Shown in pieces: positions 2,855-21,707 of a stretch of 64,000 bases of DNA (positions are counted from its first letter, which is position 1; each line of letters opens with the position of its first letter). This DNA comes from Sulfurospirillum halorespirans DSM 13726 (GTDB lineage Bacteria > Campylobacterota > Campylobacteria > Campylobacterales > Sulfurospirillaceae): positions 558,001 to 622,000 of the forward strand of contig NZ_CP017111.1 of the NCBI RefSeq assembly GCF_001723605.1, given 5' to 3'. A model generated the notes under the pieces. It was not told the origin of the DNA. It worked only from the letters and a program-made list of their open reading frames with translations, and did no database searches. The position numbers and the translations under genes are program-made.

Positions 2855-3873
2855 GCATGATCCTCAAATAATCCATTTTGCAATATCGGTGGTGTGAGAC
2901 GAAAAAGCTCATAAGTTTTAGGTGTTGCAACTCTTCCACGCGCTGTACGTTCGATGTAACTGTTCGCAAGCAGATAAGGCTCTATGACATCTTCGATGGT
3001 TCCTTCATCTTCACTCAGTGCTGCTGCCATAGTACTTAGACCCAAAGGGCGACCTTTGCTTTGCAGTAGAAGTTCGAGGTACTTAATGTCCAACTCATCA
3101 AAACCAAGGTCGTTGACACCTAGTTCATTCAAGCCATATTGTGCGCGTTCAATGCTGATGCTCTCTTCATCCACCACATCGGCATAATCACGAATACGCT
3201 TTAAAAGACGAAGCGCAATTCTAGGCGTTCCACGAGAGCGCCGTGCCATTTCGCTTGCAGCATTTTGTTGGCAGATTTTCTCCAACTTGTGCGACGCTTT
3301 GGTGATGATGATGGAGAGTTCATCTTTGGTGTAAAACTGTAGGCGAAAGTGCATACCAAAACGATCGCGAAGTGGCGAGCTAATCATACCCGCACGCGTA
3401 GTCGCACCAATAAGCGTAAAATGGGGCAGGTCGATCTTAATCGTCTGTGCCGCAGGCCCAGAGCCGATGATGATGTCAAGACGAAAATCTTCCATCGCAG
3501 GGTAGAGAATCTCTTCAATGGCAGGAGAAAGCCTGTGAATCTCATCAATGAAGAGAATATCTCCTTCTTGGAGGTTGGTCAAAATAGCGGCTAAATCGCC
3601 ACTTTTTTCGATCATAGGAGCGGCGGTTATTTTCATATTGGCGCGCATTTCGTTGGAGATGATATGCGCTAAAGTCGTCTTACCAAGACCAGGAGGGCCA
3701 AAAAAGAGAATGTGGTCTAAACACTCGGAACGTTTTTGTGCAGCTTGGATGAAGACTTGTAAATTTTTTTTGATCTTCTCTTGCCCGATGTAATCCTCAA
3801 ACGAAGAGGGGCGTAAGCTTTTTTCATACTCGTTCTCAAAAGAGATTTTTTCGATTTCGACGATGCGTTCCAT
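2851..3873 (-). CDS. ruvB: Holliday junction branch migration helicase RuvB
   Basis: RuvB is the hexameric AAA+ motor that drives branch migration with RuvA during recombinational repair. The 340-residue protein has Walker [13 protein letters not shown] near residue 60, Walker [10 protein letters not shown] near residue 108, the GATTRAG sensor/arginine-finger region near residue 155, and a C-terminal winged helix with [10 protein letters not shown]. Length is normal for the family. The gene is followed with a four-base overlap by the AI-2E-type permease and preceded by panB five bases upstream, so panB-ruvB-permease probably form one transcript. Confidence 0.97.
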
Positions 3874-3878
3874 TTATC

Positions 3879-4667
3879 TCACTTTGTGTAGGTGTAAGAA
3901 GCTTCAGGAAAACTTCGTTCTTGCACCTCTTTGACATAGGCATCAACTGCATCTTGTACCAGTGTGGCACCTTCTAAATAGCGTTTGACAAATTTAGGTT
4001 GAAACGCTTGAAAAAAGCCTAGCATGTCACTCCACACCAATACTTGACCGTCAGTGTATTTTCCTGCTCCAATACCAATGGTTGGAATAGAAATCGCTTC
4101 AGAAATACGACGTGCGGCTTCTTCAACAACACCTTCGATGACTACACTAAATGCACCTGCTTCTTCGACTGCCTTAGCATCTTCGATCAATGCGAGTATA
4201 TCTTCTTCTGTGCGACCACGTACTTTATAGCCACCTTCACTGCGTACATACTGAGGCATAAGTCCGATGTGTCCCATAACGGCAATAGAGTTTTGGGTCA
4301 GTGCTCTGATAATGTGAGCCCGACTCACACCACCTTCAATTTTCACTGCATGCGCATTGGTTTGGCTGTAGACAAGAGAGGCATTATGCAATGCCATCTT
4401 TTCATCAGTATACGTACCAAAAGGCATATCACAAACGATAAAGGTCTCTTTGGCTCCTGCACACACCGCTTTAGTGTGGTACAACATCACTTCCATAGAA
4501 GCTGAAAGTGTGTCGGGTTTGGCGTTGAAACTCATATTAAGGCTATCACCCACAAGAATAATGTCGACCTTTTGATCGAACAGTGAGGCAAAGAGTGCAT
4601 CGTAGGCTGTAATGACGGTAAGGGGTGTTTGCCCTTTGTGCTGTTTAATGGATGTAATTGTTTTCAT
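3879..4667 (-). CDS. panB: Ketopantoate hydroxymethyltransferase PanB
   Basis: PanB transfers a hydroxymethyl group from methylene-tetrahydrofolate to 2-oxoisovalerate, the first committed step of pantothenate synthesis. The 262-residue protein shows the family's N-terminal LTVITAYDALFA and LVGDSLNMS, the Mg-binding DMPFGTY, VKIEGG, and VMGHIGLMPQ; the catalytic Glu is expected in FSVVIEGVVE. The start at 4667 is chosen because family homology begins there; the frame extends 39 codons further but that sequence is unrelated. A TATAAT sits only six bases upstream of the ATG and no Shine-Dalgarno is present, suggesting a leaderless message. panC lies separately at 35.8 kb. Confidence 0.96.
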   Translation of the reverse strand: MKTITSIKQHKGQTPLTVITAYDALFASLFDQKVDIILVGDSLNMSFNAKPDTLSASMEVMLYHTKAVCAGAKETFIVCDMPFGTYTDEKMALHNASLVYSQTNAHAVKIEGGVSRAHIIRALTQNSIAVMGHIGLMPQYVRSEGGYKVRGRTEEDILALIEDAKAVEEAGAFSVVIEGVVEEAARRISEAISIPTIGIGAGKYTDGQVLVWSDMLGFFQAFQPKFVKRYLEGATLVQDAVDAYVKEVQERSFPEASYTYTK

Positions 4668-4673
4668 GGAGGA

Positions 4674-4679
4674 ATTATA
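4674..4679 (-). promoter_or_regulatory. -10 element directly upstream of panB
   Basis: A consensus TATAAT on the minus strand ends six bases before the panB ATG. Transcription normally starts about seven bases after the -10, which would place the first transcribed base at the A of the ATG. Confidence 0.6.
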
Positions 4680-4714
4680 CCCTATTTTATGACAAGAAAT
4701 TTTTAGATTAAACA

Positions 4715-4723
4715 TGATACAAT
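4715..4723 (+). promoter_or_regulatory. Extended -10 promoter for the Hpt gene
   Basis: TGATACAAT fits an extended -10 (TGn followed by TACAAT). It is followed by a GGAGGG ribosome-binding site at 4734-4739 and the ATG at 4747. It diverges from the panB promoter. Confidence 0.5.
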
Positions 4724-4746
4724 GAGCTACTTCGGAGGGTAACGAC

Positions 4747-5157
4747 ATGGGTGTTTTGGCACAATTGGAAGTTGAATTTGACATCGAAATTGTCGGAGAT
4801 TTTATCTCTCACTATGCCATTATGTTTGAAAATATGGAACCTCTGATTATTGGACTCAGTAAAAAAGAGCGTTATGCTGACAATATCGGAGACATTTTTC
4901 GCATTTTTCACAATATGAAATCAGCCGCAGGATTTTTAAAACTGGATCCTATTATTAAACTGGCAGTCTTGTGTGAAGATATCGTCGAAGAAGCGCGCGT
5001 CCTTAAAGGCCCTGCAAGCGAAGAGTTTATTGACTGGTTATTATTAGTCAGTGATCAGTTTGAAAAGTACCGCAAAGATGTCGAAGATGATGCTGATTTT
5101 TTTACCGTTTTAAATCCCTTGATTATTAAAGTACCTCATACGTTGGAGAGAGCGTGA
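4747..5157 (+). CDS. Stand-alone Hpt (histidine phosphotransfer) domain protein
   Basis: The 136-residue protein is all-helical and carries HNMKSAAGF at His55, matching the HxxKGxxG signature of phosphotransfer domains; His55 would be the phosphorylated residue. Hpt proteins shuttle phosphate between hybrid kinases and response regulators. No kinase or regulator is adjacent, so its partner is elsewhere. The stop overlaps the trpA start by four bases, coupling it to tryptophan synthase, an unrelated function; this is probably only operon economy. A similar-sized gene upstream of trpA may be a family habit of the group, but I cannot verify that here. Confidence 0.75.
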   Translation: MGVLAQLEVEFDIEIVGDFISHYAIMFENMEPLIIGLSKKERYADNIGDIFRIFHNMKSAAGFLKLDPIIKLAVLCEDIVEEARVLKGPASEEFIDWLLLVSDQFEKYRKDVEDDADFFTVLNPLIIKVPHTLERA

Positions 5158-5894
5158 AGCAATTAGTTGCCTACATTACGGCGGGTTTTCCCGATAAAAT
5201 TTTTTCATTAGATTTAGTTTCTGCCTTAAAAGAAGCAGGTGTCGATAAGTTAGAGTTAGGCATTCCTTTCTCCGATCCTGTTGCGGATGGTCCTATTATT
5301 GAGGTGGCAAATTTACATGCACTGCAAAATGGGTTTAAAATGGAGACGCTTTTTGAAATCTCTTCCATCGTTGCGCCTACAATTGAGACCTACTGGATGG
5401 GCTATTTTAATCCTTTTTACCATAAAGGCATGGAGACATTTGCCCAAAAAGCAACCGAGTTTGGCGTTAAAGGGTTTATTATTCCCGATCTTCCGCATGA
5501 AGAAGCCACTCCTTACATTCCGTTGATGAATCAGTATAACATCTCATTGATTAGTTTTGTAGCGCCAACGCACAGTAAAGAGCGCATCGCCACTGTTGTG
5601 AAAGATGCTAAAGGGTTTATCTATTTGGTCGCGTATGCTGGCATCACAGGAGCGCACGCGAGTGAAGACTTGAGCAAAACGATCCAAACCATTAAAGAAC
5701 AGAGCAACACCCCTTTGTTTGTAGGATTTGGTGTCAATGAAAAGACCGCAAAAGAGCGTGTACGCGGTGTGGATGGCGTTATCGTAGGCAGTGCTTTTGT
5801 GGAAGTGCTTTTAAATGAAAGTCTCAGTGGAAGTGAAAAGATTGCGAGTATTGCTCAAAAAGCACGAATCATTAAAGAGAAAATTAACGCGTAA
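5154..5894 (+). CDS. trpA: Tryptophan synthase alpha subunit
   Basis: TrpA cleaves indole-3-glycerol phosphate to indole and glyceraldehyde-3-phosphate, passing indole to TrpB. The 246-residue protein has YITAGFP at the N-terminus, LELGIPFSDPVADGP with the catalytic Glu and Asp, GFIIPDLPHEE, FVAPTH, and the phosphate-binding GFGVNEK and GVIVGSAFV. GTG start overlapping the upstream Hpt stop. No trpB or other trp gene is in the window, so the gene sits away from the rest of its pathway. A bidirectional terminator follows. Confidence 0.97.
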   Translation: MKQLVAYITAGFPDKIFSLDLVSALKEAGVDKLELGIPFSDPVADGPIIEVANLHALQNGFKMETLFEISSIVAPTIETYWMGYFNPFYHKGMETFAQKATEFGVKGFIIPDLPHEEATPYIPLMNQYNISLISFVAPTHSKERIATVVKDAKGFIYLVAYAGITGAHASEDLSKTIQTIKEQSNTPLFVGFGVNEKTAKERVRGVDGVIVGSAFVEVLLNESLSGSEKIASIAQKARIIKEKINA

Positions 5895-5902
5895 AAAAGT
5901 GC

Positions 5903-5934
5903 GTAGCAGTGATGGTGATCTCACTGCTACTTTT
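5903..5934. terminator. Bidirectional terminator between trpA and mlaC
   Basis: GTAGCAGTGA (5903-5912) pairs perfectly with TCACTGCTAC (5921-5930) around an eight-base loop. It is followed by TTTT and preceded by an A-run, so it can end transcripts on both strands. The 3' arm overlaps the last codons of mlaC. Confidence 0.8.
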
Positions 5935-6523
5935 GTGCTGGCTCATCAGGCTGTTTGAGTTTTTCAAGCAGGGACTCAAACGAATCTTTGGTTAAAATAT
6001 CAGCAAACTGCGTACGATACGTTTGAATAATGCTCACCCCTAAAATATCGACATCGTAAATCATCCAGCTGTTATTTTTATCTTTATAAAATTTGTAAAT
6101 AATCTCATACACTTCGCTGTTTTTCATCAGATGCGTCGTTAAATGAATCCGCGTATCTTTGATCTTTTCCAAATTCTTAATGACAATCTTCTCATCGGTG
6201 TAAAGATCAAGCTTTTCCATGTACGATGTTTTGAGTTTCATCTCAAAAAGTTTGGTAAATTCCGTCTGCTTGGAAGATGAAAGCGATGCCCACTGTTTTC
6301 CACCCAGGGAAAGTTGCGACATTAACGTATAATCAAAAATAGAGTCAAAAATGGCGAAAAGTTTTTCGGTTTTTTGAGGCTTTGGCATTTTTTTATCGCG
6401 TAAAATCGTGGTTGCAAGGTCGATATTGCTTTGCATAAACGAAGGAATATCCGCTTCTGGAATCGCAAAAGAGATGTTACATGTAAAGAGTAATGCTAAA
6501 AAGATACGTGCAAAAAAGTTCAT
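5927..6523 (-). CDS. mlaC: Periplasmic phospholipid shuttle MlaC
   Basis: A 198-residue protein with a signal peptide (LLFTCNISFA region) and the Tol-Tol-Ttg2 fold: FAIFDSIFDYTLMSQLSLGGKQW, a conserved helix-strand pair around residues 65-90, and VDILGVSIIQTYRTQF near the C-terminus. MlaC ferries phospholipids between the outer-membrane MlaA complex and the inner-membrane MlaFEDB transporter. It lies four bases downstream of mlaA, as expected for partners; mlaFED genes are not in the window. A TTACATGTAA copy falls inside the signal peptide, read as Phe-Thr-Cys-Asn. Confidence 0.88.
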   Translation of the reverse strand: MNFFARIFLALLFTCNISFAIPEADIPSFMQSNIDLATTILRDKKMPKPQKTEKLFAIFDSIFDYTLMSQLSLGGKQWASLSSSKQTEFTKLFEMKLKTSYMEKLDLYTDEKIVIKNLEKIKDTRIHLTTHLMKNSEVYEIIYKFYKDKNNSWMIYDVDILGVSIIQTYRTQFADILTKDSFESLLEKLKQPDEPAQK

Positions 6524-14856: not shown

Positions 14857-15690
14857 ATGCGTGTGAAAAGATCGTTTGTTGTTTCTGCTCTAACGTTTTG
14901 CCTTAAATATCCCAAAGCATTTTTAGTAGCCTTCCTTTTAGGAGGGCTATCTTACTCGTACGAAGTTTTCATCGCACGCGATACGATGAGCTTTCAAGGC
15001 ATTCCCACTGCGACGCAAAGCGCATCCTACACACGCATCTTTCGCAACCATGCTTATATGGTCGGTTACTCTGATCTTAAAGGCAATCCTCTGTGGGTTG
15101 TGTATAAACTGACGCCTGTAAAAGAAAATGCCCCTCACCTGAAACGTCCGGATGGTTTTCATGCAGATTGGCGCAATGTGGGGTTCATAACCAGCAGTGA
15201 TTATACGAACAGCGGTTACGATAGAGGACATATGGCGCCTAATCATGCTATCTCGATTCTGTATGGCAAAGAGGCGCAGTATGAGACCTTTTTGATGACC
15301 AATATTACCCTTCAAAAACCCTCTTTAAACCAAAAACTGTGGCAACAGTTAGAAGAGAAAGAATTAGAGATGTTTGCGCCAAAATTTAAAGCACTGTGGG
15401 TCTATACAGGTCCTTTGTTTGATGCAAAGGTTACGCGACTGAAAAGCTCGTATTTTGTGGAGATTCCCGATGCGTTTTATAAAATGTATGTGGGTATAGA
15501 AGAGGATGGTACGCTTAGAACCTTAGCGTTTATTCTCCCTCAAAATGCGAAAGCGACGGATCGTTTAGAGAAGTATGCGGTAAGTATTGATGAAGTAGAG
15601 CGCCGTAGCAGGTTTGATTTTTTACATGAGCTTGAAGATGAAATTGAAGAAGCACTTGAAAAAAAGATAGATGCTAAAGCGTGGTTTTGA
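14857..15690 (+). CDS. Membrane-anchored or secreted non-specific DNA/RNA endonuclease (NUC1 family)
   Basis: The 277-residue protein has a short basic start, a hydrophobic segment at residues 17-32 (signal anchor), then the His-Me finger nuclease domain: YDRGHMAPNHA near residue 123 contains the DRGH catalytic His, and MTNITLQKPSLNQKLW contains the Mg-binding Asn. Family members cut single- and double-stranded DNA and RNA outside the cytoplasm, for nutrition, DNA turnover or uptake-related processing. It follows argS by three bases. The operon ends at a TTTACATGTAAA palindrome. Confidence 0.88.
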   Translation: MRVKRSFVVSALTFCLKYPKAFLVAFLLGGLSYSYEVFIARDTMSFQGIPTATQSASYTRIFRNHAYMVGYSDLKGNPLWVVYKLTPVKENAPHLKRPDGFHADWRNVGFITSSDYTNSGYDRGHMAPNHAISILYGKEAQYETFLMTNITLQKPSLNQKLWQQLEEKELEMFAPKFKALWVYTGPLFDAKVTRLKSSYFVEIPDAFYKMYVGIEEDGTLRTLAFILPQNAKATDRLEKYAVSIDEVERRSRFDFLHELEDEIEEALEKKIDAKAWF

Positions 15691-15709: not shown

Positions 15710-17614
15710 TTAGGCGTCTATTAATGGGCTAGGCGTTGAGAAAAAGAGTCCTTGCGCGTACTCAATGCCCAAAGATTGGATCATCTCGTAAATCAACGCA
15801 TCACTTACATACTCAGCAATCACTTTAATCTGTGCTTCCTTCGCAAAGGCAACAATATTTTTGACCAATAAAAAAGAGATTTTATCATCTAAAACTTTTT
15901 GGATAATCGCCCCATCGATTTTAATATAATCGGTTTTTATCTCTGCCAGATAGATGAAATTGGAGTAGCCACTACCAAAATCATCGATATAAATAGTATA
16001 GCCCAACGATTTGAGCATCAAAAGATTGTTTTTGGCATCTTCTCTGTTGGTAATATCTTCGGTTTCGATGATCTCAAGTCCAAGCCTTGGGGCAATATTT
16101 TCTTGCCGAGCATAGTTTTTTAAAATACCTAGAATGGACTCATCAATCACATCATGTGGATTGAGATTGACGCTAATGCTCACCTTTGGATGGCGTAGCA
16201 GCTCTTCGTAACAGATACTCAGCACCTCTTTGGTGATATTGCGTAAAATGAAGGTGCCTTTAATGGTCGGAAGAATGCGATCAGGCAAAATAACGTTGCC
16301 ATTTTTATCGATGATGCGAAGCAGTGCCTCGTAGTGTGAAAGCTCTTGAGTAGTTGTGTGGACAATTTTTTGATAGTAGCACTCGATACGATGCTCTTCA
16401 ATCGCTGCTTTAATCTCATTAAGTGACATACAGGTATTTTGCGTATTTTCGTTCTCGTCGTAAATTTCTATAGTATTGCGACCTTTTGTTTTGGCATTAT
16501 AGAGTGCAATATCAGCTAGTTTAAAAGCCTCTTGGAAGGTTCGTGATTTATGGGGAACAAGGTTAACCCCGATGGAAACGGTGATTTTAATCGACTCTTC
16601 GTCTGAGATAGCAAAGGCATTTTCTTGGATAGCGTAAAAAATGCGCTCAATCATATTAAGAGCAATCAAATGCCCATCTCTGCGTGTTTTGGCAAGGATC
16701 AAAAACTCTTCACCGCCATAGCGTATGACAATGTCTTCTTTATGCCTGATGGTCAGTAAAATGGTGTTGGCGACTTGTTTTAAAATTTTATCACCGACAT
16801 CATGCCCGTAGGTATCATTGACTTTTTTGAAATAGTCAATGTCCAATGTTGCGAGAATGTAATCGTCAAGATTAATAAAATCTTCGTATTTTTGAAGGTA
16901 ATTTCGATTGTAGACATTCGTCAGTTTATCGATAAAAGCACTCTTCCTAACAGCACTAAACCGTCTAGTTTGAATGGTAACAAAGATCAGTATGGCAAAA
17001 ATAACGCTCATAACACCTATAATGCCGTTTTGGATGGTATGAATAATTTGGTTGATCTCTTCAATTTTATCGATGGAAAAATCAATTGCTAAAATGAGCT
17101 CGACATCGCCTTTGTTTAAGATGGGAACCAAATAACTGATCGAGAGTTGTTGTAAGAGGGTATGACGAATGATAAGTGGCGCTTTTGTGCTATAAATTTG
17201 CAGCCATTCAAGGCTTTCGACATCCAGTTTTTGATCAATAAAGGCTTTTTCCTCATGAATAGAAGCATCGCTTAAAAAGCGAAAAACGCCTCTGTTATCT
17301 CGGTACAAAAGGTAAGCATATTTGATATGGGGTGTTAAGAGTGTTTTTAAACTCTCTTCAATTTTGCGCTGAAGAAAACTATTTTTTTTAATATCCTCAG
17401 AGAAATGGGTACTCTCTTTTAAAAGCGTTTCGATATAGGTTGCACTGTTATGGGTAATGGAAAAAACATCGGAGGTCGAAATTTCAAAAATTTTAGTTTC
17501 AATGCTTTTTTCAAGCCGCATCGTTGCTAAGAGCAAAAAAAGCAAAATAGAGGCGATGACGATAATGGGAACGAGCATATAAAAAGGATTTTTAAACAAA
17601 GGCTTCTTATGCAT
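15710..17614 (-). CDS. Membrane GGDEF-EAL protein with periplasmic sensor
   Basis: 634 residues: transmembrane helix at about 12-32, a periplasmic region to about 190, a second helix (GVMSVIFAILIFVTIQT), a GGDEF domain with RYGGEEFLIL near residue 300, and a complete EAL domain. The EAL signatures are present (YEALLR, SVNLNP, EIIETED, DDFGSGYS, KIDGA, VIAEY), so c-di-GMP hydrolysis is likely. The GGEEF active site is intact but the RxxD product-inhibition site is degenerate. It is the last gene of a three-gene operon; its ATG overlaps the preceding stop (TAATG), so its output is probably set by the small periplasmic protein and the barrel encoded upstream. Confidence 0.9.
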   Translation of the reverse strand: MHKKPLFKNPFYMLVPIIVIASILLFLLLATMRLEKSIETKIFEISTSDVFSITHNSATYIETLLKESTHFSEDIKKNSFLQRKIEESLKTLLTPHIKYAYLLYRDNRGVFRFLSDASIHEEKAFIDQKLDVESLEWLQIYSTKAPLIIRHTLLQQLSISYLVPILNKGDVELILAIDFSIDKIEEINQIIHTIQNGIIGVMSVIFAILIFVTIQTRRFSAVRKSAFIDKLTNVYNRNYLQKYEDFINLDDYILATLDIDYFKKVNDTYGHDVGDKILKQVANTILLTIRHKEDIVIRYGGEEFLILAKTRRDGHLIALNMIERIFYAIQENAFAISDEESIKITVSIGVNLVPHKSRTFQEAFKLADIALYNAKTKGRNTIEIYDENENTQNTCMSLNEIKAAIEEHRIECYYQKIVHTTTQELSHYEALLRIIDKNGNVILPDRILPTIKGTFILRNITKEVLSICYEELLRHPKVSISVNLNPHDVIDESILGILKNYARQENIAPRLGLEIIETEDITNREDAKNNLLMLKSLGYTIYIDDFGSGYSNFIYLAEIKTDYIKIDGAIIQKVLDDKISFLLVKNIVAFAKEAQIKVIAEYVSDALIYEMIQSLGIEYAQGLFFSTPSPLIDA

Positions 17615-18069
17615 TAAAAATTCTCAACAAACTGATCAAACGTTTTCGGCAGCTCTATTGCTTTTATTTCAAGTCTTTTTTGGATAAAGACGATGTTTGG
17701 CCTGCTTTTATTCCAAAAAAGTGCCCCAAAATACTTCTCATCGGAGAGAAGTTTGCGGTAGTTGTTGGTAAAAAAGAGTCGGTTTGTATTATCGCATAAA
17801 CTCTCTTTTTCGACAGCTTTATTGACAAAAACAAAATTGGATGTTTCACATTTTGAACTCAGTGTAAAATATTTTGAATAGACCTTTTCTTCCATCTCTG
17901 ACATGTGTGGAATAAAGAGCTTTATCTTTCCATGCAGCGAAGCCGTAGCAATTTCAGCAATAATTTTTGCTTCAAGCTCAACCTCTTTACTATAGGGCTG
18001 TACCAAAAAAGTATAGTTTTCAGAACTCAAAAAGCTTAAAAGAGTAAAAAGAAGGATAAGTACTCTCAT
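17614..18069 (-). CDS. Small secreted protein, putative periplasmic regulator of the GGDEF-EAL protein
   Basis: A 151-residue protein with a signal peptide (MRVLILLFTLLSFLSS) and no membrane segment in the mature part. It contains two Cys (in SKCETSN and SLCDNTN) that could form a disulfide, and ends with NIVFIQKRLE and FDQFVENF. The order barrel - small periplasmic protein - membrane GGDEF protein recalls the YfiBNR logic, where a periplasmic protein holds an inner-membrane cyclase in check. I do not see clear similarity to YfiR itself. Both ends overlap neighbouring genes as TAATG, so expression is tightly coupled. The start at 18069 rather than 18081 follows from that coupling. Confidence 0.7.
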   Translation of the reverse strand: MRVLILLFTLLSFLSSENYTFLVQPYSKEVELEAKIIAEIATASLHGKIKLFIPHMSEMEEKVYSKYFTLSSKCETSNFVFVNKAVEKESLCDNTNRLFFTNNYRKLLSDEKYFGALFWNKSRPNIVFIQKRLEIKAIELPKTFDQFVENF

Positions 18070-19973
18070 TAGAATACCCACCTTATTGAGAAGGTGACAC
18101 TTCGATCGTTATCATCTAAAGCAAAAATAGCGCCATCTGGTCTTTCTGAGTAGAGCGATTTGGTTGATTTATCTAAAATATTGGAGGCTTTAATGCTGTA
18201 GCTAAGATCTTTGGTAACATGATAGGTCGCACCAAGGCTCATGTCAAAGCTATCGGGAATATCAAGACCCAAGTATTCATACCCATTTCGATAGATAATC
18301 GAAGTAAAGTAATCAAACTTCTGGTACCCTCCCATAAATTTTACATAACCCCCTTTTGTGGAGTTGTTAATGGCTTCACTGAGCGTGGATGTATAGTAAT
18401 TTAAGTGGATTTTATCTCGTTTGGAGAAGCTGTATTCATAGTCAAAAAGAAGTCCATCTGTTTTAATTCTGTGATCAACATTGATAAACCCAACGGGTGT
18501 GAGATAGAGAAAATCATCAATCTCCACATGATCAAACGTCACCCCAAATTTTGAGTTACCTTCGGTATAAACACCTTCTAATGAGTAGATATAGTACTGT
18601 TGCGATGTGAGTGCTGGCTTACTGGTATCGGCATAATCAACGTTATAAAAAGAAGGCGCTAGAGCTGTTTGGGTGTAAAAGCTTTTAAAGCCCCAGTTAT
18701 CAGTAGGGGTGTAGATGGCTCCCACTCGCAACAGTGTCTCTGAACTGTCTTTCAAATAGGCATTTCGGTCGTAATAATCAAGTTTTGTGTTAGCGACTAA
18801 AATGAGGTCATCTTGAAGTTTATAGCTGTCTTGAAAGAGGATCGACGAGGTGGTCTCTTCATCAAAACTATTGTAATGTCCTACACTGTTTGTTTGATTG
18901 ATAAAATTGGTGGTCTCACGATTTTGCACATCGTAAGTTTTATTTTTAACATTGAGTGCTGCGATAAATGAGTTGTTCTCGGTGTCAAATGATTTGGAGA
19001 GATAAGCATTCGTTTTGACAAAGCGTAGATCTTCTGTAAAATTTTTAGGGATGCTCAATGGATTAGAGAAATTAATAACAGGAATGACGTCGATACCTTG
19101 TGCATTGGCTTCCTCGTAACTTCGATCATTCACATCAACTGAGAGGTTGACTTTAAGGGATTTGTCTTCTAAGAAAGAGTGTGTGACATCAACAAAAAAA
19201 TCTTTCGAGAGACTCTTCCCACTATTGGGTGTGGCATCAAATGCAAGGCCAGTGTAGTTGTTTTTAGAGACATCGGTATAGCCCATATTGATTTTTGTGG
19301 TTTCGTTGCTAATGTCAGCATAGAAGTATTGTTTTGTGCCATTGCTATTAAGTTTTTGACCGTTATAAATGGAGGTATATTTGATCTTTTCTTGATTCAA
19401 GAACATCAAATAAGACCAGCCATTTTCAAAACTGGAAGAATTGGTAAAACTTTGTGAGTTAGAGCCTTTAGAGGTAATCCAGCTATTGATCTCAGAACTA
19501 TTCTCTTTGAGCGCGGATTTGGTGTAGATGCGTACAAAATAGATGCCCGTCTCATTACCATACGAAAATGAGCTCTCTCCATAATAAATTTCAACGTGAT
19601 CAACAAAATCTAAGGGTAAATCGCCCCAAGAGAGGGAAGTGGATTGATCGTAGCCTGAACTGATTTCATGGTCGTTAATAAAGAAGCGAAAAAAGCCGCT
19701 GGTGGTTGTTTTAGAACCTGTGAGCGAGTAGTTGGTGAGTCCAAATTGGTTGGTATTGATGTTAAAAAGAGGCAGCTCTTTTAAAATATCGTTGAGCTTG
19801 GTGTATTGCATGAGGCGGATCTCTTTTTGAGAATAAATCACCACATGCCCGATCTTTTCATTGACGGTTTGCAAAGAGTTATCGGACGTTGATTTATACT
19901 CTTGCAAGAGTGCATCAAGTGAGTCAGAAAAGAGCAGACTACTAAGGAGTCCAAGCAGCACAATAATCTTCAT
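18069..19973 (-). CDS. TonB-receptor-like outer-membrane barrel with plug domain
   Basis: 634 residues: a signal peptide (IIVLLGLLSSLLFSDS), then a plug-like domain (VNEKIGHVVIYSQKEI, DILKELPLFNIN, FFINDHEIS, HVEIYYG), then about 480 residues of alternating amphipathic strands ending in an aromatic residue (FSIRWVF), the outer-membrane insertion signal. The plug resembles TonB-dependent receptors but I see no convincing TonB box. It heads an operon with the periplasmic protein and the GGDEF-EAL protein, so it may serve as a sensor rather than, or as well as, a transporter. Ligand unknown. Confidence 0.82.
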   Translation of the reverse strand: MKIIVLLGLLSSLLFSDSLDALLQEYKSTSDNSLQTVNEKIGHVVIYSQKEIRLMQYTKLNDILKELPLFNINTNQFGLTNYSLTGSKTTTSGFFRFFINDHEISSGYDQSTSLSWGDLPLDFVDHVEIYYGESSFSYGNETGIYFVRIYTKSALKENSSEINSWITSKGSNSQSFTNSSSFENGWSYLMFLNQEKIKYTSIYNGQKLNSNGTKQYFYADISNETTKINMGYTDVSKNNYTGLAFDATPNSGKSLSKDFFVDVTHSFLEDKSLKVNLSVDVNDRSYEEANAQGIDVIPVINFSNPLSIPKNFTEDLRFVKTNAYLSKSFDTENNSFIAALNVKNKTYDVQNRETTNFINQTNSVGHYNSFDEETTSSILFQDSYKLQDDLILVANTKLDYYDRNAYLKDSSETLLRVGAIYTPTDNWGFKSFYTQTALAPSFYNVDYADTSKPALTSQQYYIYSLEGVYTEGNSKFGVTFDHVEIDDFLYLTPVGFINVDHRIKTDGLLFDYEYSFSKRDKIHLNYYTSTLSEAINNSTKGGYVKFMGGYQKFDYFTSIIYRNGYEYLGLDIPDSFDMSLGATYHVTKDLSYSIKASNILDKSTKSLYSERPDGAIFALDDNDRSVTFSIRWVF

Positions 19974-20015
19974 GGTTGAGTGCAAAATCCTTACATGTAA
20001 TTTATAAGCAATATT

Positions 20016-20080: not shown

Positions 20081-20506
20081 CTATAAAGATGCCCTCAACG
20101 TTTTAGCAGCACATACTTTACACATACCATTCATAACGATAAAACTATGACTAATATGAAAACCACTTCGCAAAGAAATTGTCTCTAAAAAGGGTTTTGT
20201 CTCCATAAACATATCTTCAACACTGCCGCATTCTGAACATAAAAGATGAATATGGGGTACTTTTTTTATCTCGTACTGCTGTTTTTGCTGTGGAAGTTTA
20301 ACCTCTTCTAAGATGTGAAATGAGATGAGGTCGTTGATATTTCGGTAAAGCGTTGCTTTGGACATCGTCGGGTATTTATGAAAAATGGAGTCGTAAAGTG
20401 TGTCAATATCGACATGTCCAAACTGATCGATTGAATCTAAAATCGCAAGTCTTTGGTGCGTTGATTTGAGATTGCTTGCTTTTAAAACGTCTTTAAACCG
20501 ATCCAT
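20081..20506 (-). CDS. Fur/PerR family metalloregulator
   Basis: 141 residues: an N-terminal winged helix (STHQRLAILDSI, DTLYDSIFHKYPTMSKATLYRNINDL) and a C-terminal metal/dimerisation domain with HIHLLCSECGS and MCKVCAA, the two CxxC pairs that bind structural zinc. It is divergent from a cytochrome c peroxidase gene, which favours a PerR-like peroxide sensor over an iron-sensing Fur. The family requires His and Asp/Glu ligands in the central HIH region; I cannot separate the subtypes from sequence alone. An AAAGGA ribosome-binding site precedes the ATG. Confidence 0.88.
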   Translation of the reverse strand: MDRFKDVLKASNLKSTHQRLAILDSIDQFGHVDIDTLYDSIFHKYPTMSKATLYRNINDLISFHILEEVKLPQQKQQYEIKKVPHIHLLCSECGSVEDMFMETKPFLETISLRSGFHISHSFIVMNGMCKVCAAKTLRASL

Positions 20507-20678: not shown

Positions 20679-21707
20679 ATGCAAATTTCTAAGGTACTTA
20701 GCCTTTGTGCACTCAGTGCAACCGTTGTTTTCGGAGCAAACACGCTGGTAGATAAGGTGAAACAAAATGGAATCGAAGCCATTCCTGTAAGTCAACTGGA
20801 AGTTTTAAAGCTAATTGATGATCCTAAGGATCCAATCACAACTGCAAAAGTAGAACTGGGCAAAAAACTCTACTTTGATCCTCGTATGTCACGAAGTTCC
20901 ATCATTAGTTGTAACACCTGTCACAATCTTGCCACAGGAGGAACGGATGGCGTTAGTGCTGCAATTGGTCATGGTTGGACCGCCAACCCGCATCATCTCA
21001 ACTCTCCAACGGTTTATAACTCCGCTTTTTTTAAAGCACAATTTTGGGATGGCAGAAGCCCACACCTAGCCGATCAAGCACAAGGCCCTGTTCAAGCAGG
21101 TCCTGAGATGGCAGCACCTCCTAAATTGGTCGAAGAGCGCATTAACTCCATTCCTGCCTATGTGGAAGAGTTTAAAGGTGCGTATGGCGATAACGTGAAA
21201 ATTTCATTTGAGAAAATCACATCCACGATTGCCATTTTTGAAAAAACGTTGGTCACACCTTCGCGCTTTGATGATTTCCTCAATGGCAATGAAAACGCCC
21301 TGAGTAAAGCTGAAAAAGAGGGGTTGGAACTCTTTATGGATAAAGGGTGTGCGAGTTGTCATAATGGCATTGCCCTTGGAGGAACCATGCAACCGTTCCA
21401 AGTTGCTGGCAAATATAAATTTGCACAAGTCGGTGATTTCGTGGGCGATAAAAACGGGTTAGTCAAAACACCAACGCTTCGCAATATCACAGAAACAGCG
21501 CCATACTTCCACAATGGAGCGATTTGGACACTTAAAGACGCCATTAAAGAGATGGGAAGTACGCAGTTAGGTATTACGATTACAGATGCGGATAGTGCCA
21601 AGATTGAGACATTTCTCAAAGCACTAAAAGGGCGAAAACCTGTGGTGATTTACCCTGAGCTTCCTGAGAGCAGTGAGAAAACGCCAAAACCTGACGCAAA
21701 ACTTTAA
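20679..21707 (+). CDS. Periplasmic di-haem cytochrome c peroxidase
   Basis: 342 residues with a signal peptide (ending VVFGA) and two CxxCH haem c sites: CNTCH near residue 82 and CASCH near residue 226. The family reduces hydrogen peroxide to water in the periplasm with electrons from small c-type cytochromes fed by the quinol oxidation chain. The HNGAIWTLKDAIKEM segment and NPHHLNSPTVYN region are typical. Divergent from a Fur/PerR-type regulator with a dyad between them, consistent with peroxide- or iron-responsive control. Confidence 0.95.
   Translation: MQISKVLSLCALSATVVFGANTLVDKVKQNGIEAIPVSQLEVLKLIDDPKDPITTAKVELGKKLYFDPRMSRSSIISCNTCHNLATGGTDGVSAAIGHGWTANPHHLNSPTVYNSAFFKAQFWDGRSPHLADQAQGPVQAGPEMAAPPKLVEERINSIPAYVEEFKGAYGDNVKISFEKITSTIAIFEKTLVTPSRFDDFLNGNENALSKAEKEGLELFMDKGCASCHNGIALGGTMQPFQVAGKYKFAQVGDFVGDKNGLVKTPTLRNITETAPYFHNGAIWTLKDAIKEMGSTQLGITITDADSAKIETFLKALKGRKPVVIYPELPESSEKTPKPDAKL

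Follow-up and report, generated by a model that had tools for sequence, protein, structure and literature searches.

A candidate YfiBNR-like transenvelope relay with a TonB-type receptor in Sulfurospirillum halorespirans and related Campylobacterota

The closest described systems to the locus considered here are YfiBNR of Pseudomonas and E. coli and HmsCDE of Yersinia, in which, according to the available portions of the published accounts, a periplasmic protein (YfiR or HmsC) represses an inner-membrane enzyme via its periplasmic domain and an outer-membrane partner (YfiB or HmsE) counters this repression (PMC4655355, PMC5550408). The outputs of Yfi systems are reported to be modular, comprising GGDEF-EAL, histidine phosphotransfer (HPT), kinase and methyl-accepting chemotaxis protein (MCP) forms, and yfiB is missing from nearly every one of the most divergent Yfi operons, whose input was left open in that study (Malone et al. 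2012, PMC3375315). Here we describe a three-gene operon in a 64,000-nucleotide stretch of the genome of Sulfurospirillum halorespirans DSM 13726 (GCF_001723605.1, NZ_CP017111.1, positions 558,001–622,000; hereafter the window, in whose coordinates the operon and its neighbours are given). It encodes a TonB-dependent-receptor-like outer-membrane protein, a small exported protein and an inner-membrane GGDEF-EAL protein, which together probably form a transenvelope relay of the YfiBNR/HmsCDE kind whose outer-membrane position is taken by a TonB-type receptor.

Like YfiBNR and HmsCDE, the set joins an outer-membrane part, a periplasmic protein of predicted YfiR fold and an inner-membrane GGDEF protein in one operon, with a periplasmic domain of the Cache clan, overlapping genes (yfiR and dgcN of E. 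coli overlap by 11 bp) and outputs that appear to be swappable. It differs in having a TonB-type receptor rather than the OmpA-like lipoprotein YfiB, a small protein outside the Pfam family DUF4154, a periplasmic domain that is not detectably CHASE8, no HAMP domain and a GGDEF-EAL output. The set is filed as a variant beside YfiBNR and not as a YfiBNR member.

In the proposed relay, the small protein would bind the GGDEF-EAL protein at the latter's Cache-like domain in the periplasm and so control the activity of the enzyme, which, if YfiR is a guide, it would probably keep in one state. The receptor would bind a ligand from outside the cell, and its plug or periplasmic face would capture or release the small protein; a switch in the Cache domain would follow, and the level of cyclic di-GMP (c-di-GMP) would be shifted by the GGDEF and EAL activities in the cytoplasm. 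A sequence-only reading of this DNA had proposed a complete path from surface to cytoplasm, parallel to YfiBNR but with a different outer-membrane part, and the conservation of the three-gene set described below supports that proposal. The same reading had also spoken of surface sensing; in the sense of contact this finds no support so far, because a receptor of the TonB type suggests that the ligand is soluble.

The three-gene operon and its products

The three genes lie on the minus strand in the order receptor (18069–19973; 634 residues from the ATG at 19973, the reading frame being already open from a TTG at 19985), small protein (17614–18069; 151 residues) and GGDEF-EAL protein (15710–17614; 634 residues). 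Both junctions read TAATG, as had been noted from the sequence, with the final A of the stop codon TAA doubling as the A of the next ATG, so that the receptor and small gene (18067–18071) and the small gene and enzyme gene (17612–17616) each overlap by one base. The arrangement is not due to chance, because it recurs across the phylum. The receptor and small genes are each present in single copy in the 3.03-Mb genome.

The first gene product contains the plug and receptor-type beta-barrel of a TonB-dependent receptor (Pfam Plug, 9.4e-9; TonB_dep_Rec_b-barrel, 1.9e-8; both above cut-off), in agreement with its initial description as a receptor-like barrel with a plug, and ends in a C-terminal Phe. 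No canonical TonB box was recognised by eye in the conserved segment preceding the plug across 86 aligned receptors. In FecA-FecR surface signalling, a TonB receptor likewise transmits a signal inward across the periplasm. The window operon differs from that system in having no STN signalling domain in its receptor (Pfam scan) and no anti-sigma/sigma pair, and in an output that is c-di-GMP or, among relatives, a kinase; the missing STN match led us to reject a FecA-type transducer.

The GGDEF-EAL protein matches Pfam GGDEF (2e-35) and EAL (8e-54), and a model of its residues 1–224 (pLDDT, the predicted local distance difference test score, 87) places a periplasmic alpha/beta domain between an N-terminal membrane helix and another that precedes the GGDEF domain, as expected from the earlier call of an inner-membrane c-di-GMP enzyme with a periplasmic part. 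The periplasmic domain (residues ~36–188) has predicted Cache/PAS-like structure matches. The GGDEF domain retains its motif (GGEEF) and the EAL domain each of the nine positions checked, and the RxxD I-site is spaced as RxxxD. In receptors of the LapD type, degenerate GGDEF and EAL domains serve to bind c-di-GMP; an assignment to this type was rejected on the basis of the intact GGEEF and EAL positions.

The small protein and its resemblance to YfiR

The small protein, the proposed periplasmic adaptor, begins with a stretch resembling a signal peptide and contains two cysteines (C74 and C92), consistent with its first description as a small periplasmic protein with a cysteine pair. It has no credible match in Pfam or NCBIfam, DUF4154 (PF13689) being absent both from its own matches and from the 25 families listed for its 78 homologues (17–99% identity to the window protein), and searching the sequences of solved structures with the small-protein profile returned nothing relevant. 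Its nearest named relatives are Sulfurospirillum records (78–91% identity; five close relatives in a contig search with one protein).

A resemblance to YfiR appears at the level of predicted structure. An AlphaFold2 model built from the 78 homologues (mean pLDDT 89) has YfiR chains (4zhu_B, 4yn9_B and 4yn7_B) among its best Foldseek matches in the PDB, with a probability of 0.98–0.99, a template modelling (TM) score of ~0.52–0.56, 8–9% identity and E values of 0.02–0.04; no match reaches E 0.001. With VIA-align, the YfiR entries score Z 9.3–10.3 across 120–124 residues, and the next unrelated class begins at Z 7.2. The predicted fold of the small protein is of the type shared by YfiR and the lobes of ABC_sub_bind proteins.

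The resemblance extends to genomic position, as genes of the canonical YfiR family occupy the same slot beside TonB receptors. DUF4154 was detected in 36 of 397 Campylobacterota genomes at E ≤ 0.01, 29 of them above cut-off, and not above cut-off in the S. halorespirans genome. Among the 20 loci examined (the stronger of 50 match places), the DUF4154 gene adjoins a TonB receptor in 19, called by plug and barrel in Pfam or, in L162, by a receptor profile hidden Markov model (HMM), while the twentieth (L175) is truncated where its contig stops. L158, L165 and L168 carry, in this order, a receptor, DUF4154 and CHASE8-HAMP-GGDEF, and L157 and L169 are arranged similarly; by domain content, the first three are predicted to be YfiR with a YfiN-like enzyme, a TonB receptor replacing YfiB. 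Outside this phylum, two queries gave four non-enterobacterial plasmid loci with DUF4154 (two from Sphingobium, one each from Indioceanicola and Pseudoalteromonas), all with the receptor upstream (split into two open reading frames in Pseudoalteromonas) and, downstream, a gene for either a CHASE8 kinase or a CHASE8-HAMP-GGDEF-EAL protein; the one Pantoea locus examined has the classical order YfiR, cyclase, OmpA. These DUF4154-TonB receptor operons (L157–L174, L176 and L187–L190) thus share the architecture of the window set, many with CHASE8 sensors, but their adaptor is recognisable as YfiR by sequence and their receptor may lie upstream or downstream. In L159 (4757–9496, plus strand) and L160, the operon of a canonical DUF4154 gene and a TonB receptor has as its last gene a kinase that carries the periplasmic domain family of the window enzyme, which by gene content makes these loci a natural hybrid between the two types of system. 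In two further loci, DUF4154 and GGDEF are fused in one open reading frame, at 4770–6293 (plus strand) directly behind a TonB receptor in L176 and at 3675–5213 (minus strand) in L175.

The sequence-only reading had been unable to link the small protein to YfiR, a point that is corrected here: a link is supported because the predicted fold matches and true DUF4154 genes hold the same slot beside TonB receptors, though the evidence from sequence profiles is weak. Comparison of the small-protein and DUF4154 profiles by hhalign gave a strong-looking result with signal peptides included (probability 86.9, P 4e-6), which was dropped as evidence of homology as the score derives mostly from the signal peptide, and the YfiR link therefore rests on fold and slot.

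Several observations weigh against the relay proposed here. With signal peptides trimmed, the same comparison falls to a probability of 4.7 (P 0.008), its score of 20.8 lying just above the highest value from 60 shuffles (19.9), so that sequence homology to YfiR is only suggestive and membership of DUF4154 is not seen at the sequence level. The operon contains no YfiB, and neither CHASE8 nor HAMP was found in the window enzyme; CHASE8 has been assigned to the same Cache-like clan, as stated in the available part of PMC8846402, but a profile comparison of the window's periplasmic domain with CHASE8 remained at chance level (score 16.1, with shuffles reaching 18.1). Moreover, lobes of ABC_sub_bind proteins score about as high as YfiR against the small-protein model (3lkv, Z 10.9; 3lft, 10.6; 6hni, 9.2), as does the R. 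marinus single-domain substrate-binding protein 6k1y (Z 10.6), which has the same fold. Since this fold is common to YfiR, ABC_sub_bind lobes and 6k1y, the fold alone leaves the role of the small protein unfixed.

The shared fold also suggests a different route by which a signal could reach the enzyme. A ligand could be imported by the TonB-driven receptor and captured by the single-lobe small protein, the loaded form of which would activate the Cache domain without any sequestration at the outer membrane, much as LuxP acts with LuxQ. Small molecules are commonly sensed by Cache domains, three TonB_C genes are present in the S. halorespirans genome, and genes of the 6k1y type are reported near chemoreceptor genes in the available text of PMC10805632. 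However, YfiR is matched about equally well as the binding proteins, and over its full length, true YfiR genes occupy the same slot, and no transporter gene is linked to the operon. The pattern of conservation in the small protein also favours a partner surface. Across the 78 homologues, G115, K121 and R123 are invariant and F100, Y104, W119 and P124 are conserved in at least 90%, and these residues lie in the last hairpin and the preceding strand of the model, beside the C-terminal helices. In YfiR, the conserved partner surface is formed by beta7, alpha3, alpha4 and alpha1, as described in the available part of PMC4655355, to which the conserved hairpin region of the model would correspond when mapped by topology rather than by coordinates. 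Ligand delivery by the small protein is the main alternative to the proposed relay, but one that we consider unlikely.

Recurrence and co-inheritance across the Campylobacterota

A profile built from six small proteins was searched across the 397 Campylobacterota genomes (E ≤ 0.01) and gave matches in 89 genomes from 26 of 68 genera. The DNA around all 100 match places was examined, and 94 loci with a confirmed small gene, in 84 genomes, form the basis of the following counts; six loci without one (L198, cut by a contig start, and the weak matches L201 and L203–L206) and one duplicate row of L104, in which the small gene is split by a stop, were dropped, and L177 and L178 lie outside the 94. 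In 91 of the 94 loci, the gene immediately before the small gene is the receptor (exceptions L049, L181 at a contig end, and L186), and a sensor with the same periplasmic Cache-like domain follows in 89, joined to GGDEF-EAL in 67, to GGDEF only in 15 and to a histidine kinase in seven. The other five comprise a kinase with no detected periplasmic domain (L062), a fragment of that domain at a contig end and three loci with no downstream sensor (L049, L063 and L179). The sequence-only reading had suggested looking for this gene order in other Campylobacterota, and had named scattered genes or a small protein that proved to be a known enzyme or chaperone as grounds for abandoning it; the order recurs, and both possibilities were examined and neither was found. 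Nine genomes hold two or three copies, and not every copy is a complete module. No relatives were found in plasmids, searched with the periplasmic domain and two of the small proteins, or in a scan of viral contigs.

The output of the module varies among these loci. Of the 82 aligned GGDEF-bearing partners, 15 have no EAL domain, while six keep the EAL domain behind a broken GGDEF motif. These six modules (L064, L069, L075, L076, L120 and L121; one cut by a contig end) all belong to a single genus, labelled g49, and their output is probably phosphodiesterase only, judging from the motifs. In six of the eight kinase-type modules the next gene encodes an EAL domain, and in a further kinase-type module (L178) it encodes a receiver-PAS-EAL protein; these modules therefore also point to c-di-GMP. 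The input parts are thus retained, while the output may be that of a cyclase or a phosphodiesterase, of both together, or of a kinase. Two individual loci depart from the usual surroundings. The kinase-type module of L078 (512–4854, minus strand) is followed by a gene for a protein of 963 residues with binding-protein-like N-terminal regions and by a second similar kinase, and the small gene of L049 (5088–5507, minus strand) is an orphan with neither receptor nor sensor, upstream of motA/motB-like genes.

The association also holds when approached from the other two genes. The periplasmic domain, searched alone in the same genomes (E ≤ 1e-5), gave 111 matches in 96 genomes, and for 90 of the 93 matches at E < 1e-40 a small-gene match lies directly upstream by coordinates. 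In the remaining three (L177, L178 and L179), read by hand, the small gene and receptor are in the cluster, one being ordered sensor-receptor-small, so that all 93 strong matches are clustered with a small gene. The next two matches (L160, E 1e-23; L159, E 4e-22) are the kinases of the DUF4154 operons with plug and barrel receptors described above, and the remaining 16 (3e-11 or weaker) are provisionally taken for generic Cache sensors, except for a fragment beside a small gene in G392. Similarly, 87 of the 89 receptor HMM matches in the module loci adjoin the small gene, and none of the seven GGDEF genes without the periplasmic domain in these loci adjoins a small gene or receptor. Pairwise distances of the three proteins are strongly correlated across 81 modules (r 0.89–0.93; permutation maximum 0.11 for the small protein–receptor pair), which demonstrates co-inheritance rather than contact.

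These patterns bear on the view that the operon is one of transport with loose co-regulation, in which the receptor imports a nutrient, the small protein is an assembly helper or chaperone and the enzyme is co-transcribed without being physically wired to either. TonB receptors are mostly transporters, the role of the small protein is a prediction from its model, and a gene of the Fur/PerR type lies upstream in most near relatives. However, the confinement of the periplasmic domain to small-gene clusters at E < 1e-40, the free change of output between GGDEF, EAL and kinase, and the adjacency of receptor and small gene are hard to explain without a periplasmic link, and we regard this view as improbable. 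Least probable of all, to the point of being barely credible, is a redox sensor in which, as has been proposed for YfiR and HmsC, the C74–C92 pair reads the periplasmic redox state and the receptor is an accessory: the cysteines are both present or both absent in 75 of the 78 homologues (both in 57, neither in 18, one in three), a PerR-like gene is nearby and HmsC is redox-responsive in the available account (PMC5550408), but the pairing is as expected for a dispensable structural disulfide, and pure redox sensing was rejected as a general function because the 18 homologues without both cysteines mostly keep the operon.

If the relay is taken together with the DUF4154 operons, a broader proposal can be made, towards which we lean only slightly: TonB receptors may be a general outer-membrane input for YfiR-type adaptors, forming a widespread class that is indifferent to output (TonB receptor, YfiR-fold adaptor, and Cache or CHASE8 sensor with GGDEF, EAL or kinase) and distinct from FecA-FecR, with the window set as a divergent Campylobacterota branch that has its own pair of adaptor and sensor domain. 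If true, this receptor class would account for the missing input of many Yfi systems without YfiB, and a TonB receptor in the place of YfiB would give c-di-GMP control an outer-membrane, ligand-specific input. No paper on coupling between TonB receptors and YfiR proteins was found in the open-licence literature, judged by title and the start of the abstract; the word 'TonB' is absent from the main text of Malone et al. 2012 (PMC3375315), and neither 'TonB' nor 'YfiR' occurs in the main text of a 2022 review of c-di-GMP sensory input. The proposal makes it testable which outside molecules set c-di-GMP in the Campylobacterota and beyond, and the 84 genomes offer the same input parts with cyclase, phosphodiesterase, dual or kinase outputs.

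Surroundings of the operon

Upstream of the operon, a Fur/PerR-type regulator gene (20081–20506, minus strand; score below the NCBIfam PerR cut-off) ends ~107 bases before the receptor ATG. Most Sulfurospirillum-like loci have it next to the module, whereas other genera do not, and a role for it was set aside. Divergent from it, at 20679–21707 (plus strand), is a gene whose product, from its CxxCH motifs, resembles a di-haem cytochrome c peroxidase. A consensus promoter scan returned sites no more numerous than expected, terminator-like sites number eight against 3.2 expected, all of them within genes, and an Rfam scan gave no match. Downstream and convergent with the operon, a DNA/RNA non-specific endonuclease gene with a membrane-anchor-like start (14857–15690, plus strand) ends 19 bases from it, and an open reading frame of the same size is found at this position in most close relatives. 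Further away in the window, a Phosphonate-bd domain (PF12974; 45162–45896, plus strand) lies in an open frame of 1020 residues, which may represent the fusion of a binding protein with a signalling protein.

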